Assembly: GCF_001543325.1 (NCBI RefSeq)
Contig: NZ_CP013355.1
Span: forward strand, 1,208,001-1,272,000
Source: Lutibacter profundi
GTDB lineage: Bacteria > Bacteroidota > Bacteroidia > Flavobacteriales > Flavobacteriaceae
Reading direction: 5' to 3'
Length of the DNA: 64,000 nt
Position numbers and translations under genes: made by a program. The notes under the pieces were generated by a model, which made no database searches, was not told where the DNA came from, and saw only the letters and a program-made list of their open reading frames with translations. This document shows, piece after piece, positions 2,903-11,986 of this stretch. Within the stretch, counting starts at the first letter, position 1. Every line of letters starts with the position of its first letter.

Positions 2903-3670
2903 TTATGCTAAAATTTTAGTTACAAAACTAGGGATTTCTGCTACTCCTTTTTCTTGTAAAAAACGAATAAAGGCCGAACCTATAATTGCTCCATTCATAT
3001 ACTCACATACCTTATTAAAGGTTGCTTTATTTGAAATACCAAAACCTACAATTAAGGTACTTTTTAAATTCATTTTTTTAATTCTCTTAAAATAGGCTAT
3101 TTGCTTTTCTGAAATTTCTCCTTTAGCACCTGTAATTGAGGAAGATGCTACTACATAAATAAAAGCATTGGTAATTTTATCAATTTTTCTAATACGCTCT
3201 TCTGAAGTTTGTGGTGTTATTAAAAATACATTTGAAATTCCATAATTTGCAAATAAAGCTTGGTAATGAGATTCGTATTCAAGCATCGGTAAATCAGGAA
3301 TAATTACAGTTTCTATACCGCAGTCTTTACATTTTTGACAAAATTTAGCTTCACCATATTTTATAACCTGATTTAAGTAACCCATTAAAACTAAAGGGGT
3401 GTTAACAGTCTCTTTTATTGCTTCCAACTGATTAAAAATAAGATCTAAATTCATTCCATTCTTCAATGCTACAGAACTACTATGTTGTATTGTTGGTCCA
3501 TCAGCCAATGGATCTGAGTACGGCAAACCAACTTCAATAAAATCTACACCATTACTTTCCAATTTTTTAATAATTTGTTCAGTATCATTTAATTTTGGAA
3601 AACCTGCAGTAAAAAATACTGAACATAAATTATGCTGTTTCACTTTAAATAAACTAGTTAACTTACTCAT
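2903..3670 (-). CDS. trpA: Tryptophan synthase alpha chain
   Basis: 255-residue TIM barrel that cleaves indole-3-glycerol phosphate to indole and glyceraldehyde 3-phosphate and channels indole to TrpB. The catalytic Glu lies in [17 protein letters not shown] and the second catalytic Asp in [12 protein letters not shown]. The phosphate-binding glycines are in VGFGIS and the C-terminal IIGSAFIR. It is slightly shorter than enterobacterial TrpA but typical for Bacteroidota. It is the last gene of the trp operon and its start overlaps the trpB stop by eight bases, indicating translational coupling. No obvious terminator lies between its stop and the convergent dipeptidase gene 23 bases away. Confidence 0.97.
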
Positions 3671-4847
3671 CTTTTAAATGTGTTATATAGGTTTCTAAAT
3701 CTTTATCACCTCTTCCAGATAAATTAATTACAATTACCTGATCTTTTGTTAATTTCATTTTGGACAAAACAGCTAGTGCATGAGCCGATTCTAATGCTGG
3801 AATAATTCCTTCAATTTTTGTTAACTCATACGCAGCATTTAACGCTTCTTTGTCTGTTGCATTCATAAATATAGCACGTTCACTTTCGTGTAAAAAAGCA
3901 TGCAAAGGACCAATTCCAGGATAATCCAATCCTGCTGAAATAGAATAGGGTTCTATTACTTGCCCATATTCATCTTGCATTAATATGGTTTTACTTCCAT
4001 GTAAAACACCAACTTCTCCTAGTTGAGAAGTTGCTGCCGATTGCCCACTATGCACACCTAAACCTGCAGCTTCAACAGCAATTAACTGTACATTTTTAGT
4101 GTCTAAATAATGGTAAAAAGCACCTGCTGCATTACTTCCGCCACCTACACAAGCAATTACCATGTCTGGATTTTCATTCCCTGTTTGCGCTAATAATTGT
4201 TCCTTAATTTCTTTACTAATTATAGATTGCAAACGAGCCACCATATCTGGATATGGATGTGGACCAACAACAGAACCTATTAAATAATAGGTGTCTTCAG
4301 GATTCCCAATCCAATCTCTAATGGCTTCATTTGTGGCATCTTTCAATGTTTTACTACCACTTATTGCAGGCACAACTGTTGCGCCCAACATTTTCATTCG
4401 GGCTACATTTGGTGCTTGTCGTTTTATATCAACTTCTCCCATAAAAACAATACATTCTAAATCCATTAAAGCACAAACAGTTGCTGTTGCAACACCGTGT
4501 TGACCAGCACCTGTTTCGGCAATAATTCGTTTTTTTCCTAAATATTTTGCAACCAATATTTGTCCGATAGTATTATTAATTTTATGTGCACCTGTATGGC
4601 ATAAATCTTCTCTTTTTAAATAAATAGTAGCTCCATATTTTTCAGATAAGCGTTTCGCAAAATACAAAGGTGTTGGCCGCCCAACGTAGTTATCTAACAG
4701 CTCTTTAAATTCATTTTTAAAAGAATCTGATGCTAATATTTTTAAATAATTATCTTCTAATTCTTTTACATTTGGAAACAATAGTTCTGGTATAAATGCA
4801 CCTCCAAACTGACCGTAATAGCCATTTTTATCTACAAAAAAACTCAT
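3663..4847 (-). CDS. trpB: Tryptophan synthase beta chain
   Basis: 394-residue PLP enzyme that condenses indole and serine to tryptophan. The PLP-binding lysine is in [14 protein letters not shown] (about residue 90), the phosphate-binding glycine loop in GGGSNAAG, and the catalytic-site ETGAGQHG motif is present. The ordinary TrpB1 length and COMM-domain sequence suggest a TrpA-dependent enzyme. The start overlaps the trpF stop by four bases (ATGA) and the stop overlaps the trpA start, so trpF-B-A are tightly coupled. Confidence 0.97.
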
Positions 4848-5491
4848 ATTAAGTTATGTTTAAATTCTTTAATATTTTTAATATTTTTTAAAGCAGGTTC
4901 TATTTCAAAACCACTATTTATATCGACACCTTTAAAAGCAGGATGTATTATTTTTTTTATATCCTCAGCATCATCTTTTGAAATACCTCCACTTAATAAA
5001 AATGGCACCTTACCTTTATAGTTTTGAAGTATTTCCCAATTAAATTTGATACCATTTCCTCCATAATTTGTTCCTTTGGTATCAAACAGAAAATATTCAC
5101 AAAATTTTTGAAACTTTTTTGTAATGCTGAAATCAAAGTTTTCATCTACTGAAAATGCTTTGATAATTTTTAATTTATGAGATTCTGAAACAATCTTTCG
5201 ACTGCGCTCAAGATGACTATTTAGAATTTCATTACAATAATTAGGAGTTTCATTTCCGTGCAACTGTACAAAATCTAATTTATATTTTTCAACAGTAGCA
5301 ATTACTTTTTCAATAGTTTCATTTACAAAAACACCTACTTTTTTTGTTTCCGAAGGAAATTTAATCTGCGGAAATTCTGTAACAAAACGCTTAGATTTAT
5401 GATAGAAGATAAACCCTACAAAATCTGGTTTCAAAGCTAATAAGCTCGAAACATTCTCTACATCTCGCATTCCGCAAACTTTAATTTTCAT
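4844..5491 (-). CDS. trpF: Phosphoribosylanthranilate isomerase with in-frame repeat-derived insertion
   Basis: 215 residues. Amadori isomerase converting phosphoribosylanthranilate to CdRP. The catalytic Cys is in KVCGMRD (residue 6) and the catalytic Asp in [11 protein letters not shown], with phosphate loops LLSGGIS and GVDINSGFE. Between VQLHGNE and IKAFSV, residues near 88-105 read [15 protein letters not shown]. That stretch is encoded by a copy of the dispersed palindromic repeat (TTTCGACTGCGCTCA on the + strand, 5196 onward). It makes the protein about 15-18 residues longer than expected and should fall in a surface loop between barrel elements. The reading frame is intact, so the gene is probably functional, and the protein is needed because no second trpF is visible. 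Confidence 0.95.
5196..5216. repeat. Dispersed palindromic repeat (GAGCGnAGTCGAA family) inside trpF
   Basis: On the + strand the core is TTTCGACTGCGCTCAAGATG, followed by AC. It matches the core found in many intergenic spacers of this window (5640, 7925, 7965, 8016, 62295, 63409, 63752, 63814). In trpF it is translated as LERSRK. Confidence 0.85.
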
Positions 5492-5540
5492 TTTTGTTTT
5501 TGTTTTTTGTTTAACTGTTTAATAGTTAATTTCATTTATC

Positions 5541-5560
5541 ATTCCTGCGAAGGCAGGAAT
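5541..5560. repeat. Dispersed palindrome, GCAGGAAT family
   Basis: Eight-base arms ATTCCTGC (5541-5548) and GCAGGAAT (5553-5560) enclose a GAAG loop. Related copies lie at 37612-37636 and 38128-38172. It sits in the 229-base trpC-trpF spacer, which also holds a threefold ATTCTTTTTTAG-like tandem near 5605-5640 and another repeat at 5640. No gene is seen in that spacer. Confidence 0.75.
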
Positions 5561-5639
5561 CTATTTATTGCTAATTGTGGATTCATCCTTCCACAGGAAT
5601 GACATTCTTTTTTAGATTCTTTTTTAGATTCTTTTTATT

Positions 5640-5663
5640 CATTTCGACTCCGCTCAGTGACCA
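5640..5663. repeat. Dispersed repeat, GAGCGnAGTCGAA family, trpC-trpF spacer
   Basis: Core ATTTCGACTCCGCTCAGTGA on the + strand is the canonical form of the family seen throughout the window. Confidence 0.85.
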
Positions 5664-5720
5664 AATGGAATGACATTTTTTTACAAATACACCATTCAGT
5701 GCATACATATTTACATTCTT

Positions 5721-6506
5721 TTACTTAATTTGACTTATAAATTCTTGACAAGCATAGCCTGGATTTTCAGTTTTCATAAAATTTTCGCCAATTAAAAAAC
5801 CTTGAAATCCATATTCTTTTAAGCCAACAATAACTCTTGGGTCACTCAGTCCGCTTTCAGAAACTTTAATACAACTCTTTGGTATTTGATTTGCCAATTC
5901 AATTGAGCGCTCTAAATTAACCTCAAAAGTTTTTAAACTTCTATTATTAATCCCTATTATTTTATGGTCGAGTTCAATTTTGTCTAATTCTTCTATATTG
6001 TGTACTTCATACAATACTTCTAAACCTAAATCTTCAGCTAATTTTCCATAATTTTTCAATTCTTGTTTTGTTAAACAAGCAGCTATTAACAAAATAGCAT
6101 CTGCTCCAATGGCTTTAGCTTCTACAATTTGAAATCCGTCAACAATAAAATCTTTTCTTAAAATTGGAGTGGTTTCATTCACCGTTCTTGCTTGGATTAC
6201 ATCTAAAATACTTCCTCCAAAAAAATGAATATCGGTTAAAATAGATTGAGCTGCAACCTTAGCTTCTAAATAACCATGAGTAACATCAATTATAGTTGCT
6301 TTGTCATTAATAATTCCTTTTGAGGGTGATTGTCTTTTAAATTCAGCTATAATTCCTGTTGAACTTTTAACTGTTAAAGCTTTTTTTAATGAAATTGGTG
6401 TGCGCTTAAAATTAGGGCTTTTAACTAATTTTTCTATCGAAACCTCTTTCATTAATTGTGCTACTTCTTTCTTTTTATGTGCTATTATTTTATCTAAAAT
6501 GTTCAT
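5721..6506 (-). CDS. trpC: Indole-3-glycerol phosphate synthase
   Basis: 261-residue TIM barrel that closes the indole ring of CdRP. Family motifs: IIAEFKRQSPSKG with the catalytic Lys, LRKDFIVD, IGINNRSL, KVSESGL and FLIGENFM. The length is normal and the N-terminal helix starts directly at MNILDKIIAHKK. It is a separate monofunctional enzyme (not fused to TrpF), the fourth gene of the operon. It is separated from trpD by a dead GIY-YIG gene and from trpF by a repeat-filled spacer. Confidence 0.97.
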   Translation of the reverse strand: MNILDKIIAHKKKEVAQLMKEVSIEKLVKSPNFKRTPISLKKALTVKSSTGIIAEFKRQSPSKGIINDKATIIDVTHGYLEAKVAAQSILTDIHFFGGSILDVIQARTVNETTPILRKDFIVDGFQIVEAKAIGADAILLIAACLTKQELKNYGKLAEDLGLEVLYEVHNIEELDKIELDHKIIGINNRSLKTFEVNLERSIELANQIPKSCIKVSESGLSDPRVIVGLKEYGFQGFLIGENFMKTENPGYACQEFISQIK

Positions 6507-6546
6507 TTTTATACTTAATTGGTAATTCTTAAATTATATTCATTTT

Positions 6547-6574
6547 CGTCACCCTGAACTTGTTTCAGGGTCTC
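6547..6574. repeat. Dispersed palindrome, CTGAACTTGTTTCAG family
   Basis: The + strand reads GTCACCCTGAACTTGTTTCA followed by GGGTCTCA, with arms ACCCTGAA/TTCAGGGT. A mirror-oriented copy is at 6866-6894, a degenerate copy at 60938-60965 and a translated copy lies in mvaD (58939-58962). It overlaps the end of the GIY-YIG pseudogene. Confidence 0.8.
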
Positions 6575-6853
6575 ATCCAAATTGTAGTGTTTTTAAAGTA
6601 GGGTTCATTTCCTTAATTAAATTTATTTTCCAGTCGTGATGCTAATTTTTTAATTTTTTTCTCTTAAAATTGCTTGATTTATATCCGTAAATTCTTCGAA
6701 ATATATTAAATCTTTCACATTATATTTTGATGTAAACTTTGAACCTAATCCATTTTTATGCTGGTTTATTCTTTCTTTTAAGTTTGATGTCATACCAATA
6801 TAAAAGGTTGTTCTATATTCATTCACTAATATGTAAACATAACTTAATTTCAT
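6573..6853 (-). pseudogene. GIY-YIG endonuclease-like gene, inactivated
   Basis: The open part encodes 67 residues with the GIY-YIG hallmark (YVYILVNEYRTTFYIGMTSN, the conserved Arg in LKERINQHK, and Glu in FEEF) but ends at REKN. Just past the stop another frame continues the family: LKN, then TAG where Trp is usual, then HHDWKINLIKEMNPTLKTL, to a TGA at 6573-6575. Two lesions are therefore seen: one base missing in an A7 run (+ strand T7 at 6654-6660) and a TGG-to-TAG nonsense change. Such small GIY-YIG proteins of unknown role (about 80-110 residues) are common in Flavobacteria. The gene lies inside the trp operon flanked by two inverted copies of the CTGAACTTGTTTCAG repeat, suggesting that it entered as a passenger. 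Confidence 0.75.
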
Positions 6854-6865
6854 ATTCTCATTAGA

Positions 6866-6894
6866 TGTGATGCTGAAACAAGTTCAGCATGACG
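6866..6894. repeat. Dispersed palindrome, CTGAACTTGTTTCAG family, inverted copy
   Basis: The + strand reads GTGATGCTGAAACAAGTTCA followed by GCATGACG, inverted relative to the copy at 6547. Together the two copies bracket the GIY-YIG pseudogene between trpD and trpC. Confidence 0.8.
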
Positions 6895-6895
6895 T

Positions 6896-7906
6896 TTATA
6901 GTTGAATCTGCTCTTTAAAATTTTTAATCAACTTCGTTAAACATTGTTTTGCTTTTAAACTAACTAAAGATTCTTTTGCTTCTTCAAAAGCTGTATCAAA
7001 AGATTTATTTTTATCTATTATTTTTAATGCAAATGCGGCATTTGCCAATACTGCATTATTTTGTGCTTCAGTTCCTTTTCCGTCTAAAATTGACATAAAT
7101 ATTTTGGCGGAGGTTGCTACAGAGTTTCCTCCAAAAATTTCTGATTGCTGTAATCTTTTTAATCCTAAATTTTCAGGTGTTATTAATTGTTCGTTTTCTT
7201 TGGTAAATAATTTGAAAGAACTTGTTAATGAAATTTCATCGTAACCATCTAAACTATAAACTATTCCGTAATTTTTTGAGGTTTCTTGCAATAAATAATT
7301 GTAAATTCTGGCAACTTCTAGATTAAAAACACCTACCAATTGATTTTGTGGATTGCTTGGATTTACCAACGGCCCTAACATATTAAAAAAAGTTTTTAAA
7401 CCTAATTCTTTACGAACCGGACCAACAGCTTTCATAGCCGGATGAAATAATGGTGCGTGTAAAAAACAAATATTCGCATCTTCTATTTGACGCTTTAATG
7501 TTGCTTCATCATTGGTAAATTTATACCCTAAATATTCTAACATATTAGATGATCCACTTACTGAAGACACTCCGTAATTGCCATGTTTAGCCACTTTATT
7601 TCCTGTGCCTGCAACCACAAATGATGTTAACGTTGAAATGTTGAATGTGTTTTTGCCATCACCACCTGTACCACATAAATCAATAGTGTTAAACTCCGAC
7701 AAATCTATTTTTACTGCCAATTCTAATAATGCCTCTCTAAAACCGGCTAACTCCTCTACAGAGATTGGTCGCATCATAAAAACGGTTAAAAAGGAAGCTA
7801 TTTGTGATGTATTATAGGTTTCATTTGCTATTTGAATAAGCACTTCTTTAGCTTCTTGTTTTGTTAAACGCTGTTGTTCAAATAATTTGTTTAAAATATT
7901 TTTCAT
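6896..7906 (-). CDS. trpD: Anthranilate phosphoribosyltransferase
   Basis: 336 residues. Transfers the phosphoribosyl group of PRPP to anthranilate. PRPP/phosphate-binding GTGGDGKNTFNIST and the glycine-rich KHGNYGVSSVSGSSNMLE follow the N-terminal helical domain. The motif HPAMKAVGPVRKELGLKTFFN is typical (positions about 165-185). It lies third in the operon, not fused to TrpG. Confidence 0.97.
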   Translation of the reverse strand: MKNILNKLFEQQRLTKQEAKEVLIQIANETYNTSQIASFLTVFMMRPISVEELAGFREALLELAVKIDLSEFNTIDLCGTGGDGKNTFNISTLTSFVVAGTGNKVAKHGNYGVSSVSGSSNMLEYLGYKFTNDEATLKRQIEDANICFLHAPLFHPAMKAVGPVRKELGLKTFFNMLGPLVNPSNPQNQLVGVFNLEVARIYNYLLQETSKNYGIVYSLDGYDEISLTSSFKLFTKENEQLITPENLGLKRLQQSEIFGGNSVATSAKIFMSILDGKGTEAQNNAVLANAAFALKIIDKNKSFDTAFEEAKESLVSLKAKQCLTKLIKNFKEQIQL

Positions 7907-7924
7907 TATATTTTTTTGTGTTAT

Positions 7925-8036
7925 GGTGATTGAGCGGAGTCGAAATCTTAACTGTTATAATTTTACTTCGACTCCACTCAGTAGCCAATTCTATACATTC
8001 GTTATTTATTAAATATCTCGACTCCGCTCGATATGA
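7925..8036. repeat. Cluster of three GAGCGnAGTCGAA-family repeats in the trpG-trpD spacer
   Basis: Copies at about 7925-7948 (GTGATTGAGCGGAGTCGAAA), 7965-7987 (ACTTCGACTCCACTCAGTAG, inverted) and 8016-8036 (TCTCGACTCCGCTCGATATG). The first two form an inverted pair that could fold in the operon mRNA. The 181-base spacer holds no other feature. Confidence 0.8.
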
Positions 8037-8087
8037 CATACTCTTCCACTCAGTTCAGTAAGCATATTCATAATTTTCAATTGTTAT

Positions 8088-8663
8088 TTATTTATTTTCT
8101 TCTATAAAATTACGAACTATTTGTTCTCCTAAAGGTGTTAAAATTGACTCAGGATGATATTGTACGGCACTTATATTATATGTTTTATGTTGTAAAGACA
8201 TAATATCATCAAATTCGTCTACTGCTGTTATTTCTAATTCTGGCGGAAAATCTTTTTTAGATGCTATCCACGAATGATACCTTGCTGCTTCAAATTTAGC
8301 GGGAATTCCCTTATAAATTGAAGCATCCTTATTGGTTACTTTCATAGTTGTTGCTACACCGTGAAAAACCGAATCTAAATTTTCTAGCGAACCACCAAAT
8401 ACCTCTGTAATTGCTTGTAACCCCAAACAAACTCCAAAAATTGGTTTTTTACCTGCATAGGTTTTTATAACTTCTTTTAAAATTCCGGCTTCATCAGGAA
8501 TTCCTGGACCCGGTGATAACATAATTAAATCGTATTTATTAATAGCCTCAACAGCTATTTCGTTGTTTCTATAAACTGTTGGATATTTCCCAGTAATATT
8601 TTCAACTAAATGAACTAGATTATAGGTAAATGAATCGTAATTATCTATGATTACTATTTTCAT
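8088..8663 (-). CDS. trpG: Anthranilate synthase component II (glutamine amidotransferase)
   Basis: About 191 residues. Class I glutamine amidotransferase supplying ammonia to TrpE. The nucleophile Cys is in FGVCLGLQAI, His/Glu of the triad in YHPES, and the oxyanion motif in LSPGPGIPDEAG. I place the start at ATG 8663 (MKIVIIDNYDSFTYN), the normal family N-terminus. The frame stays open for 32 more codons to 8759, but that stretch is translation of the REP-like element at 8696-8816, not protein. Confidence 0.96.
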   Translation of the reverse strand: MKIVIIDNYDSFTYNLVHLVENITGKYPTVYRNNEIAVEAINKYDLIMLSPGPGIPDEAGILKEVIKTYAGKKPIFGVCLGLQAITEVFGGSLENLDSVFHGVATTMKVTNKDASIYKGIPAKFEAARYHSWIASKKDFPPELEITAVDEFDDIMSLQHKTYNISAVQYHPESILTPLGEQIVRNFIEENK

Positions 8664-8695
8664 ATTTTGTCTTTTTATCTTTTTATTCTTTTTTT

Positions 8696-8816
8696 GCGTT
8701 AGGGATTGAAGCTTTGTTTGAGCTCTTTTTGTTTTTTCAACAAAAAAGCGAGTGCGCAAAGCCCGACCTTCCTTTTCTCTCGATTGAAGTCGAGAGAAAA
8801 GGAAGGTAACGCCCTA
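8696..8816. repeat. Multi-hairpin REP-like element between trpE and trpG
   Basis: Ends GCGTTA (8696-8701) and TAACGC (8807-8812) are inverted. Inside are a GCTTTG/CAAAGC stem enclosing a second stem, and a perfect 18-bp hairpin (8766-8783 with 8790-8807, loop TTGAAG). The minus strand begins at the TAG stop of trpE and runs to CCCTAACGC. From memory the overall form (GGGCGTTACC ... GTCGGGCTTT ... AATCCCTAACGC) resembles a widespread flavobacterial interspersed element. In the trp mRNA it could protect the 3' end of trpE or lower downstream transcription. Confidence 0.8.
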
Positions 8817-10205
8817 AATATTTTTTGCCATAAGTAATGCTTTTTTTAAAGCGGCTAACTTATTATTTACTTCTTGTAACTCTCCTTCTTCGCTAGAATT
8901 TATAACAATTCCTGCACCTGCCTGATAAAACAAGGTGTTATTTTTACTTACAAACGAGCGAATGGCAATTGCTAAATTTACTGAATTATTGAGTCCAATA
9001 AAGCCTACTGCACCGCCGTAAAACCCTCGAGTTTGATTTTCGTAGGTATCAATTAATTCCATTGCTTTGTATTTTGGCGCACCACTTAACGTGCCTGCCG
9101 GAAACGTATCTCCCACAATTTCAATGGCATTGCCAATTGGTTTTCCTTCTACAGTTGAAACCAAATGAATAACGTGGCTGAAATACTGAACTTCTTTAAA
9201 AACCTCAACCTGTACATTACTGGCATGTTTACTTAAATCGTTACGCGCTAAATCTACCAACATTACGTGTTCTGCATTTTCTTTGGTGTCTTTAGCTAAT
9301 TTTTCACCCAATAAAATATCTTTAGCCATATCTCCTGTTCTTCTAAAAGTTCCTGCAATTGGGTTGATAATGGCTTTTTCTTTGTTGATTTTAATTTGAG
9401 CTTCAGGTGATGAGCCCATTAATTTAAAACTTCCATAATCAAAATAAAACAAATAAGGTGATGGGTTTATAGAACGTAACGCTCTGTACACATTAAATTC
9501 ATCTCCTGAAAATTTTTGCTGAAACTGACGTGATAATACTAGTTGAAAAACATCGCCTCGTTTACAGTGTTGCTTTGCCTTTGCTACATTATTTTTATAA
9601 TCTACATCCGTACAATTGGAAGATTCATTTCCTTTTGTCTCAAATTTATACAAGCCATAGGTTCGTGCATTTATCAATGTTTGAATTTCTGCTATTCTTG
9701 ATATTTCTCCTTCTTCAATATTTTCAATAAGTGTTAATTCATCGTTAAAATGGTTAATTGCAATGATGAATTTAAAAAAACTAAATTGAAAATCTGGTAT
9801 TTCTGAAGGTGCTTTTTTGGCATTTAATTGAATGGTTTCAAAATACTGAATTGAGTTGTAGGATATATAACCATAAAAACCATTGTACGATTTTATTGAT
9901 TCTTCACAATCTACTTTTATAGTTTTACGGTATTCTTCAAAAATATTATAAAAATCACGATTTATTTCTTTTGCATCGAGTTCTTTATCTTTATAATTGT
10001 ATGTAAACGTATTATTATCAGCTTTTAATGTAATAATTGGTTCAATACAAATAAAGGTAAAACTTTCTTCTTTACTATGATAATCAGAACTTTCTAGCAA
10101 TAAACTATTGGCATATTTATCTCTAATTTTAGAATACATGCCAACTGGTGTAATTGTATCAGATAATTGTTTTTTGGTGATTGTTTTAAATTTAATTTTC
10201 TTCAT
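8814..10205 (-). CDS. trpE: Anthranilate synthase component I
   Basis: 463 residues. Converts chorismate and ammonia to anthranilate. The N-terminal regulatory domain carries LLESSD near residue 35, the motif that binds the feedback inhibitor tryptophan. The C-terminal chorismate-binding domain has QLVLSRQF, INPIAGTFRRTG, ENAEHVMLVDLARNDL, FPAGTLSGAPK and GFYGGAVGF. It is the first structural gene after the attenuator. Its TAG stop is the edge of the REP-like element. Confidence 0.97.
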   Translation of the reverse strand: MKKIKFKTITKKQLSDTITPVGMYSKIRDKYANSLLLESSDYHSKEESFTFICIEPIITLKADNNTFTYNYKDKELDAKEINRDFYNIFEEYRKTIKVDCEESIKSYNGFYGYISYNSIQYFETIQLNAKKAPSEIPDFQFSFFKFIIAINHFNDELTLIENIEEGEISRIAEIQTLINARTYGLYKFETKGNESSNCTDVDYKNNVAKAKQHCKRGDVFQLVLSRQFQQKFSGDEFNVYRALRSINPSPYLFYFDYGSFKLMGSSPEAQIKINKEKAIINPIAGTFRRTGDMAKDILLGEKLAKDTKENAEHVMLVDLARNDLSKHASNVQVEVFKEVQYFSHVIHLVSTVEGKPIGNAIEIVGDTFPAGTLSGAPKYKAMELIDTYENQTRGFYGGAVGFIGLNNSVNLAIAIRSFVSKNNTLFYQAGAGIVINSSEEGELQEVNNKLAALKKALLMAKNI

Positions 10206-10220
10206 TTTTGTTGAAATAAA

Positions 10221-10248
10221 AAAGGACTTATCGCGAGATAAGTCCTTT
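10221..10248 (-). terminator. trp attenuator terminator hairpin
   Basis: Perfect 12-bp arms AAAGGACTTATC (10221-10232) and GATAAGTCCTTT (10237-10248) with a four-base loop. On the minus strand it is followed by a T-rich run just before the trpE start at 10205. With the Trp-codon leader peptide upstream this is the terminator of an attenuation system. I did not find a convincing alternative (anti-terminator) pairing by eye, although the leader stop region at 10250-10300 is the place to look. Confidence 0.88.
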
Positions 10249-10287
10249 TGTTATATAGTTTAGTATAAATATAATAGTTTGGCTCGC

Positions 10288-10341
10288 TTATTGTTTAAGA
10301 GAGTTCCACCACCAATTCATATTTAAATTATTTGTCTTCAT
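10288..10341 (-). CDS. trpL: trp operon leader peptide (three consecutive Trp codons)
   Basis: Minus-strand ORF of 17 residues, MKTNNLNMNWWWNSLKQ, ending in TAA. Three adjacent TGG codons in a 17-codon ORF, placed between the promoter and a terminator directly ahead of trpE, are the signature of ribosome-mediated transcription attenuation. Low charged tRNA-Trp would stall the ribosome at WWW and favour readthrough. The ATG lies only eight bases after the end of the TACATTTG box, so the 5' leader is nearly absent and no Shine-Dalgarno sequence is seen. Confidence 0.9.
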   Translation of the reverse strand: MKTNNLNMNWWWNSLKQ

Positions 10342-10349
10342 TATTGTTG

Positions 10350-10380
10350 CAAATGTAAGATAGATTTTTTAATGACCAAA
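10350..10380 (-). promoter_or_regulatory. trp operon promoter (Bacteroidota -33/-7 type)
   Basis: On the minus strand, TTTG (10377-10380), exactly 19 bases, then TACATTTG (10350-10357), a perfect match to the TTTG-N19-TAnnTTTG consensus recognised by the Bacteroidota primary sigma factor. Its -33 box starts about 24 bases after the stop of the upstream AspT-like transporter. Confidence 0.85.
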
Positions 10381-10402: not shown

Positions 10403-11986
10403 TTATACAATACTTAAAATCTGAATTACAATTATTAATAACACCATTGCAATTGGATAAACCGTTGCATAAGCTACTGCAGGAGCATCCGTATCAACCA
10501 TATTATCAACAGCTGCTAATCCCGGCGTACTTGTCATACTTCCTGTTAATGTTCCTAGTAATGTAAGTAAATTCATTTTGAAAAAATACTTCGCAAAAAT
10601 AGTGGTAATAATCATTGGGATTAAGGTAATTAAAGCTCCATATAAAAATAACTCAATACCATAATTTTGGAAAGTAGCTTCAATACTAGAGCCTGCACTT
10701 GTACCAACAGCTGCTAAAAAGAAAAGCAATCCAAATTGCCGTAAAATTTGATTAGCAGCACCAGTCATTGTCCACATAATTGGTCCTGTTTTTCCTGTTC
10801 TTCCCAAAATAAGTGCCAACAATAAAATTCCACCTGTTAAACCTAAACTAAATGAAAAGTCACCAAAATTTATACTTAATTTACCTACTAAAATTCCTAA
10901 AATAATTCCGAATGAAATAGGGAAAAAGTCGGTATTGGAAAGTTGGCTATCATCATCTCCAAAAATACCAGCAACTTTTTTCATATTCTCTTTAGATGAA
11001 ATTACCATAATTTTATCACCAAATTGTAGTTTTGAAGAAGGACTGGGAGAAATATTAATTCCTGAACGTCTAATTCTTGTAACAGTTGCATGATATTTGT
11101 TTAATAAATGCAATTGCCCTAATGTTTTTTTAACTACTTCTTTATTGGTAACTAATACTAGCCTTACATCAAAATTTGAACTTAGTGGAATTGTTTTTTT
11201 TGTTTGTGGGCCAATTAGAAGTTTAACACGTTCAATAGCTTCTTCAGTTCCAACTGCTTTAATAATATCACCTTTATTAAAAATGGTATGTGGTTCAGGT
11301 ACAAGGGTTATATTATCATGTAAAATTCTAGAAATAACAGCTTTTGTCATAAAACGAACATCAATTTCCTCAAAACTTTTACCAATTACATTTTCATTTT
11401 CAACTATAAAATGTCGTTGTATAATTTCAGGGTATTCAGTAGCTATTTCTTGTTTATATTTTGTTTCTTCATCACTTATTTTTACGCCTATAAATTTGGG
11501 TAAAAGACTTACAAAAATAATAACTCCTATTACTCCAAATGGATAGCCAATACCATAGCCAATAGATGCTAATGATGAGCCTGTTACATCAATAGCAACT
11601 GCTAAACCAGGTGTACTTGTTAAAGCTCCACTTAATAAACCAATGCTTAAGTTTTTATCAACACCTCCAACATAGTAAATTAAGAAAGTTATAAATCCAG
11701 CACTTATAACAAGAATGCTTGCTAAAGAAGCCAAATCTCTACCATTTTTTTTGAATGATTCAAAAAAACTTGGCCCCGCTTGTATACCAACAGTAAAAAT
11801 AAACAAAACCAGCCCTATAAATTGAAAGTCTTTTGGAACAACAATTCCATAATGACCAAAAAACAAAGCCACAAATATAACTGCTGATACATCTAAAGAA
11901 ATTCCTTTAATTTTAATTCTACCTATTATAAAGCCAATTAAAATAATTAAAAATAGCACGAAATAACTGTTATTAAACAAACTCAT
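10403..11986 (-). CDS. AspT/YidE/YbjL-family transporter with two RCK_C domains
   Basis: 527 residues. Two homologous membrane halves (about 1-165 and 365-527) flank two TrkA-C/RCK_C domains (about 190-350). The duplication is visible in the repeated motif GALTSTPGLAVA in the first half and GSMTSTPGLAAV in the second. The family includes the aspartate:alanine exchanger AspT, but YidE/YbjL members with central RCK_C domains are functionally uncharacterised, so the substrate is unknown. RCK_C domains often bind small ligands or nucleotides. A TAATTTTG box at 12003-12010 (minus) lies close upstream of the start. Confidence 0.88.
   Translation of the reverse strand: MSLFNNSYFVLFLIILIGFIIGRIKIKGISLDVSAVIFVALFFGHYGIVVPKDFQFIGLVLFIFTVGIQAGPSFFESFKKNGRDLASLASILVISAGFITFLIYYVGGVDKNLSIGLLSGALTSTPGLAVAIDVTGSSLASIGYGIGYPFGVIGVIIFVSLLPKFIGVKISDEETKYKQEIATEYPEIIQRHFIVENENVIGKSFEEIDVRFMTKAVISRILHDNITLVPEPHTIFNKGDIIKAVGTEEAIERVKLLIGPQTKKTIPLSSNFDVRLVLVTNKEVVKKTLGQLHLLNKYHATVTRIRRSGINISPSPSSKLQFGDKIMVISSKENMKKVAGIFGDDDSQLSNTDFFPISFGIILGILVGKLSINFGDFSFSLGLTGGILLLALILGRTGKTGPIMWTMTGAANQILRQFGLLFFLAAVGTSAGSSIEATFQNYGIELFLYGALITLIPMIITTIFAKYFFKMNLLTLLGTLTGSMTSTPGLAAVDNMVDTDAPAVAYATVYPIAMVLLIIVIQILSIV

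Follow-up and report, generated by a model that had tools for sequence, protein, structure and literature searches.

The trp operon of Lutibacter profundi is preceded by a leader that is best read as a ribosome-mediated transcription attenuator, a reading to which we assign a probability of about 0.92. Its parts lie on the minus strand at 10380-10205 of the window (the whole 64,000-nucleotide stretch analyzed, from a genome of 2.97 Mb in one contig), directly 5' of trpE. The reading is carried by the anatomy of the leader, its conservation, base pairs kept through sequence changes and its geometry; the start site, ribosome stalling, co-transcriptional timing and the response to tryptophan are what we infer. 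The leader belongs to a known device, Bacteroid-trp, and is not a new kind. A preliminary description of this DNA had proposed an attenuator composed of promoter, leader open reading frame (ORF), hairpin and T run before trpE, which the present analysis confirms. The mechanism as first read is right, and what is added to this already known kind is its details and its spread. The parts of the leader and its neighboring genes are as follows.

10403..11986, minus strand: AspT/YidE-type transporter gene, directly upstream of the leader, same strand as trp
10377..10380, minus strand: -33 element TTTG, read from the sequence
10350..10357, minus strand: -7 element TACATTTG, consensus TAnnTTTG as given in passages of PMC9723704
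10345, minus strand: predicted transcription start, 5 nt past the G of the -7 box
10288..10341, minus strand: leader ORF trpL, MKTNNLNMNWWWNSLKQ, ATG at 10341, stop TAA at 10290-10288, 18 codons including the stop
10306..10314, minus strand: three Trp codons, TGGTGGTGG
10296..10303, minus strand: region 1, CTCTCTTA, within trpL just 3' of the Trp codons, partner of region 2
10283..10290, minus strand: region 2, TAAGCGAG, including the trpL stop codon, core GYGAG
10233..10237, minus strand: region 3, CTCGC, made up of the terminator loop and the top pair, pairing with GCGAG as antiterminator
10220..10249, minus strand: intrinsic terminator hairpin AAAAGGACTTATC-TCGC-GATAAGTCCTTTT, arms 10249-10237 and 10232-10220, 13 pairs, loop TCGC
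10218..10223, minus strand: U tract; TTTTTTATTT follows the stem
8814..10205, minus strand: trpE, first structural gene, ATG at 10205-10203
2903..8759, minus strand: trpG, trpD, trpC, trpF, trpB and trpA, the remainder of the operon, in the order trpEGDCFBA

The transporter gene ends 22 nt ahead of the -33 element. In a profile search, trpG, trpD, trpC, trpB and trpA each passed a curated cut-off. For trpE, the curated cut-off of the best model (trpE_most) is 517.7 bits and the score was 415; for TrpF, the best model gave 139.9 against a curated cut-off of 215; the names of these two genes therefore rest on operon context too.

Conservation was assessed in two samples. The close-relative sample contained the window and 80 loci, 81 in all, which were the best 80 of 379 relatives found in a TrpE search, the best named ones being mostly Lutibacter; these loci are close kin and are not independent. 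One locus lacked upstream DNA and another had 63 nt only, leaving 79 informative loci. The phylum sample contained the 41 of 118 genomes with a TrpE match at E <= 1e-80; the 77 with a weaker or no TrpE were left out, and counts in this sample are not whole-phylum counts. Exactly three consecutive Trp codons were present in the leader ORF of all 79 informative loci. Ribosome-mediated attenuation by Trp codons, as proposed beforehand, had been made to depend on the conservation of the TGG run among relatives, and the unbroken retention of the triplet supports it. Across the phylum sample, a short ORF containing W(x)W and ending 60-350 nt before trpE was found at 39 of 41 loci (L. profundi included), 37 of which had WW, and a terminator was recognized after the Trp leader at 38 of these 39. 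The two trpE genes lacking a Trp-rich leader (loci L172 of genome G092 and L173 of genome G071) come from one genus.

When regions upstream of trpE were shuffled, a suitably placed short ORF with W(x)W arose in 18 of 820 cases. The real upstream regions of his and ilv genes contained one in 1 of 22 cases, and the regions upstream of ORFs of at least 150 amino acids in the window in 1 of 49, the single case being trpL itself. An additional match to TGGTGGTGG in the L. profundi genome (G000:C1:1133794) was considered as a second leader and dropped: it lies in a long open frame and reads Gly-Gly-Gly. Similar places were also seen at L220 and L221.

The codons following the Trp triplet encode NSL in 62 of the 79 loci and are written AAC TCT CTT in every one of these 62. 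Of 289 Leu codons in nine ORFs of the window, 17 are CTT, and none of the 47 Leu codons that lie earlier in the leaders is. Because AAC TCT CTT is constant though CTT is rare in the genes of the genome, we read this invariance as probable selection on the RNA, not on the peptide. Moreover, the GYGAG core of region 2 begins 21-24 nt past the first base of the last TGG at all 79 loci. Outside WWW and the following NSL, the leader peptide varies between species. This variability bears on the proposal of a trans function, besides cis attenuation, for the RNA left by termination or for the leader peptide, like that of rnTrpL/peTrpL in Sinorhizobium meliloti. Termination would yield a small, near-leaderless mRNA, as passages of PMC7298713 describe for S. 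meliloti; however, a peptide that differs between species argues against a peptide function, and we consider such additional trans action unlikely.

Upstream of trpL, the spacer between TTTG and TACATTTG is 19 nt. A TAnnTTTG box was found ahead of the leader ORF in 79 of 79 informative loci; at 75 of these, a TTG precedes the box by 19 or 20 nt. The predicted start follows from the position of this box at -12..-5 given in the passages of PMC9723704 and would leave the window leader with a 5' untranslated region (UTR) of 4 nt. On the same basis, the predicted 5' UTR is 1-7 nt in 76 of the 79 close loci and 13-14 nt in the other 3. In the phylum sample, a full -7 box was present at 26 of 41 trpE loci, the remainder having a weak box (11), no box (2) or no leader (2). 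For the 26 full boxes, the predicted 5' UTR was 0-6 nt in 16, 12-17 nt in 9 and 28 nt in 1, values that the box rule (last box with an in-frame ATG) biases toward short lengths. For comparison, passages of the cited reports give a median 5' UTR of 24 nt with 5.5% leaderless transcripts in F. psychrophilum (PMC9723704) and leaders of >10 nt on 87% of transcripts in F. johnsoniae (PMC6847099). No Shine-Dalgarno sequence was seen ahead of trpL in the window. A scan for E. coli-type promoters gave 17 matches in 2 kb against 12.2 expected and is uninformative here. The earlier view of trpL as nearly leaderless agrees with this prediction, which is conserved among relatives.

Between the leader ORF and the first structural gene lies an intrinsic terminator. 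It had been described as a perfect 12-bp hairpin whose T run stops 16 bases short of trpE. By count, the stem has 13 pairs; its arm ends 14 nt from the trpE ATG, and the T run extends to 10218. Base pairs were counted in 52 distinct sequences; eight Flavobacterium-type rows, out of register in the 60-sequence alignment, were left out. For the terminator, 12 pairs were counted, 100% of cells were paired and two pairs had changed on both sides, which are compensatory changes of the kind anticipated for the hairpin. A generic terminator scan found 1 terminator against 0.7 +/- 1.0 expected in 2 kb, which is weak evidence by itself. The leader folds at -30.8 kcal/mol, compared with -14.3 +/- 3.2 for shuffled sequences (z -5.1; 0 of 200 shuffles as low). 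The part of the leader before the terminator 3' arm folded no better than shuffles (z -0.01), and in the equilibrium fold of the whole leader the terminator wins. The attenuation model therefore needs kinetic competition, and as equilibrium folds are unable to show antitermination, a three-state calculation was used (see below). That the terminator is the equilibrium structure also fits a mainly constitutive terminator behind a decayed or decorative ORF, with trp control exerted elsewhere, for example by a repressor. Such an arrangement gives no reason for the Trp triplet, the exact spacing or the synonymous-codon invariance of region 1, and it is further opposed by the retention of region 2:3 pairing through sequence changes, making it a very unlikely account of the leader.

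In the 52 sequences, regions 1 and 2 are paired in 95.6% of cells, none of the pairs having changed on both sides. Regions 2 and 3 (GYGAG with CTCRC, that is, GCGAG:CTCGC or GTGAG:CTCAC) are paired in 94.2% of 260 cells, with 15 cells unpaired. The variable Y:R pair is U-A in 30 sequences, C-G in 18 and U-G in 1; 3 sequences have no pair there. With the partner shifted by 1-3 columns, 22-72% of cells were paired, the maximum, 72%, being at +3. The covariation in region 2:3 reflects, for the most part, a single split between clades and hence few events. The antiterminator core in the window comprises 5 bp only. Leaders of the GTGAG type have an alternative partner, CTTAT, reached via G.U pairs, and CTTAT was the partner assigned to GTGAG in 50 of 79 loci when the first best 5-mer was taken. 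In Flavobacterium-type leaders, as judged by reading, region 2 is GTCGTGA, the terminator contains GTCATCACGAC, and the partner consists of the loop and the start of the 3' arm.

Some individual leaders were arranged differently. In L115 (G338), as judged by reading, region 2 (AAAGTCTT) repeats the sequence of the terminator 3' arm and would pair classically with the 5' arm, unlike in the window. In L004, L020, L027, L029, L031 and L086, CGCGAG or CGCAAG stands at the terminator apex in place of CTCGCG (by reading); the GCGA of region 2 still finds a TCGC there, two columns toward the 5' arm.

For the three-state folding, the RNA was cut just 3' of the terminator loop and folded free, with a ribosome at the third Trp codon (Trp3), or with a ribosome at the stop codon. 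The antiterminator that the preliminary description had left to be searched for is present in these simulations. In the window leader without a ribosome, the probability of 2:3 pairing, P(2:3), is 0.04 and P(1:2) is 0.76; with a ribosome on Trp3, P(2:3) is 0.99, and with a ribosome at the stop it is 0. Thus folded, the window leader contains a 2:3 antiterminator and a 1:2 protector that are mutually exclusive and placed for ribosome control. The calculation was extended to 101 sequences (GCGAG type, 29; GTGAG type, 47; TCGTGA type, 25), with L087, L093, L115 and duplicates left out; a first extraction from 113 candidates had lost 14, one in which no Trp run was found and 13 through a strict terminator pattern. 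In the stalled state, mean P(2:3) was 0.94, 0.86 and 0.97 for the GCGAG, GTGAG and TCGTGA types, respectively; it was at least 0.5 in 90 of 101 sequences and 0.35-0.48 in the other 11. With the ribosome at the stop, mean P(2:3) was 0.00-0.02, and when the letters of region 2 were permuted, the stalled mean fell from 0.91 to 0.30. Without a ribosome, 1:2 and 2:3 pairing had probabilities of 0.61 versus 0.22 in the GCGAG type, 0.38 versus 0.50 (about even) in the GTGAG type and 0.15 versus 0.80 in the TCGTGA type, so that only the GCGAG type, to which the window belongs, shows clear protection by 1:2. A blind duplex test at wider loci was moderately positive, giving p<=0.05 in 23 of 47 trp, 1 of 12 his and 1 of 8 ilv sets, after 4 of 51 trp sets (2 lacking a leader and 2 a recognized terminator) and 2 of 10 ilv sets were dropped. 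Because pairing in the his and ilv leaders involves the 5' arm more, we do not generalize the loop-directed antiterminator to every operon.

From these parts, the following mechanism can be proposed. Transcription would start about 4 nt before the AUG of the 18-codon leader ORF. When Trp-tRNA is scarce, a ribosome would stall on the Trp codons and mask region 1 (CTCTCTTA). Region 2 (TAAGCGAG), being free, would then pair with the nascent terminator apex (GCGAG:CTCGC) before the 3' arm is made; the terminator would be unable to nucleate in time, and trpE would be transcribed. When tryptophan is plentiful, the ribosome would reach the UAA inside region 2 and mask that region, and the terminator would form. 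It would also form if no ribosome were present, through pairing of regions 1 and 2. When the last Trp codon occupies the A site, approximately 12 nt downstream are covered by the ribosome (a toeprint value). With this cover, region 1 would be hidden and region 2 free at the last Trp codon, and region 2 would be hidden at the stop.

The distance between leader and gene can be set against another use of leader translation, namely an effect on trpE translation by re-initiation or coupling and not on termination. Passages of PMC4833913 describe a peak of Bacteroidetes leader ORFs 11-14 bp before the structural gene and ascribe it to re-initiation. The trpL stop, however, is 82 nt from trpE in the window and 72-195 nt away in relatives, with the terminator in between, and we regard re-initiation or coupling as a highly improbable explanation.

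At the Rfam gathering threshold, the leader had no match, and only three tRNAs were found in the window. Hence no T-box or riboswitch family matched at that threshold, which bears on direct sensing of tryptophan or tRNA by the RNA or an RNA-binding protein (of the T-box, TRAP or riboswitch type), with the ORF incidental. A structured leader ahead of trpE would suit direct sensing. A (G/U)AG repeat array, as for TRAP, is not apparent by eye, however, and the nearly constant distance from the Trp codons to region 2 also speaks against an incidental ORF; we judge direct sensing to be extremely improbable.

The family to which the leader does belong is Rfam RF01692, Bacteroid-trp (Bacteroidete tryptophan peptide leader RNA), with which it shares the phylum, the gene, an AUG-leader ORF with Trp codons and a hairpin after these codons. 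The window leader also has the location of the family, upstream of trp genes in Bacteroidetes. It scored 40.3 bits (E 0.0016 in a 301-base search), under the cut-off of 49, in an alignment that spans model positions 1-131 of 131 with several non-standard pairs. The model consensus stops in the terminator 5' arm; it thus contains neither the terminator nor the antiterminator, both of which are present in the window. Nine lower-threshold Rfam matches besides RF01692, for example STnc370 and RefA9, are probably due to chance. RF01692 passed in 0 of 60 relatives (L. profundi included), with five sub-threshold matches, and in 27 of 296 phylum-wide genomes. A single genus of the same family accounts for 16 of these 27. 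These searches of 60 and 296 genomes used stricter filters that lose weak matches, the L. profundi match among them.

The preliminary description had put the novelty of such leaders in Bacteroidota too high. Besides the Rfam entry, passages of published reports name Bacteroid-trp RF01692 in a table (Table 1 of PMC2864571), describe its conservation upstream of the F. psychrophilum trp operon (PMC6414381) and speak of strong clues for leader-peptide attenuation at amino-acid operons of F. psychrophilum (PMC9723704). In Bacteroides thetaiotaomicron, short ORFs reminiscent of leader peptides are mentioned in a passage of PMC7366714. We found no description of the antiterminator, the phylum-wide spread or the short 5' ends among the open-licence papers listed, which is no proof of absence.

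The trpL of E. coli has two Trp codons and a 5' UTR with a Shine-Dalgarno sequence. The window leader resembles this attenuator in its four-region logic, its Trp codons, the stop next to region 2 and the intrinsic terminator. It differs in having three Trp codons, no visible Shine-Dalgarno sequence and a predicted 4-nt UTR, and in that region 3 is the terminator apex and not the 5' arm. Leaderless trp ORFs offer a further comparison: according to passages of the respective reports, both the trpL of S. meliloti (PMC7298713) and TrpL1 of Streptomyces lividans (MFAHSTRNWWWTAHPAAH; PMC8079986) lie at the start of the RNA as Trp leader ORFs, ahead of a terminator, the arrangement predicted here. 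These systems belong to other phyla, and their 5' ends come from data, whereas those in the present leaders are predicted; they are precedents outside the phylum for the idea of a short 5' end.

Leaders were also present at other amino-acid operons. In L. profundi, hisG is preceded by a His leader (MNFIQSHHHHFYTYTQVS) and a terminator (L151, region of G000:C1:556779-557243), and His-rich leaders were found at 12 of 12 HisG loci (L. profundi and relatives), with a predicted 5' UTR of 14-18 nt in the 10 loci that have a full -7 box. A branched-chain leader (MQTTNLNSIILIQVIGINLVI) with a terminator lies approximately 271 nt upstream of ilvD (L163, region of G000:C1:2470061), and Ile/Leu/Val-rich leaders were found at 8 of 10 ilvD loci. 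The leuA-like genes that were inspected showed no clear leader, and no usable upstream DNA was obtained for a second gene encoding homoserine dehydrogenase. A Thr-rich leader ORF was observed 5' of the aspartokinase-homoserine dehydrogenase gene in L. profundi (L214) and at L215-L217. By reading, its AUG coincides exactly with the predicted transcription start in all four genomes inspected, and no U-tract terminator was seen in these four; this leader may work in another way than terminator attenuation.

Beyond the window, a broader idea can be put forward tentatively, as a possibility that we think is probably not correct in full: that attenuation with the AUG at the RNA 5' end is old and phylum-wide in Bacteroidota, that the short 5' end is itself selected, and that the apex antiterminator acts kinetically and not at equilibrium. 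If this were true, the first ribosome would load on the emerging RNA without Shine-Dalgarno pairing and keep pace with RNA polymerase, and the trp operon would report close transcription-translation coupling, which is little studied in the phylum.

Collectively, these findings provide a full, testable anatomy for a family that the public model describes only partly and whose RF01692 threshold leaves out the Lutibacter form seen in the window and its relatives. What they add is the antiterminator and the terminator, both of which the Rfam model lacks, the leaders at 39 of 41 phylum loci, the predicted 5' UTR of 1-7 nt, and the his and ilv leaders with terminators. Since the switch needs a ribosome close behind RNA polymerase and is found at nearly all sampled trpE loci, the results suggest transcription-translation coupling at least at the trpE leaders of Bacteroidota. 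Such coupling would hold in bacteria that start translation without Shine-Dalgarno sequences, and the very short predicted 5' ends make initiation of this near-leaderless type testable in a natural regulator.
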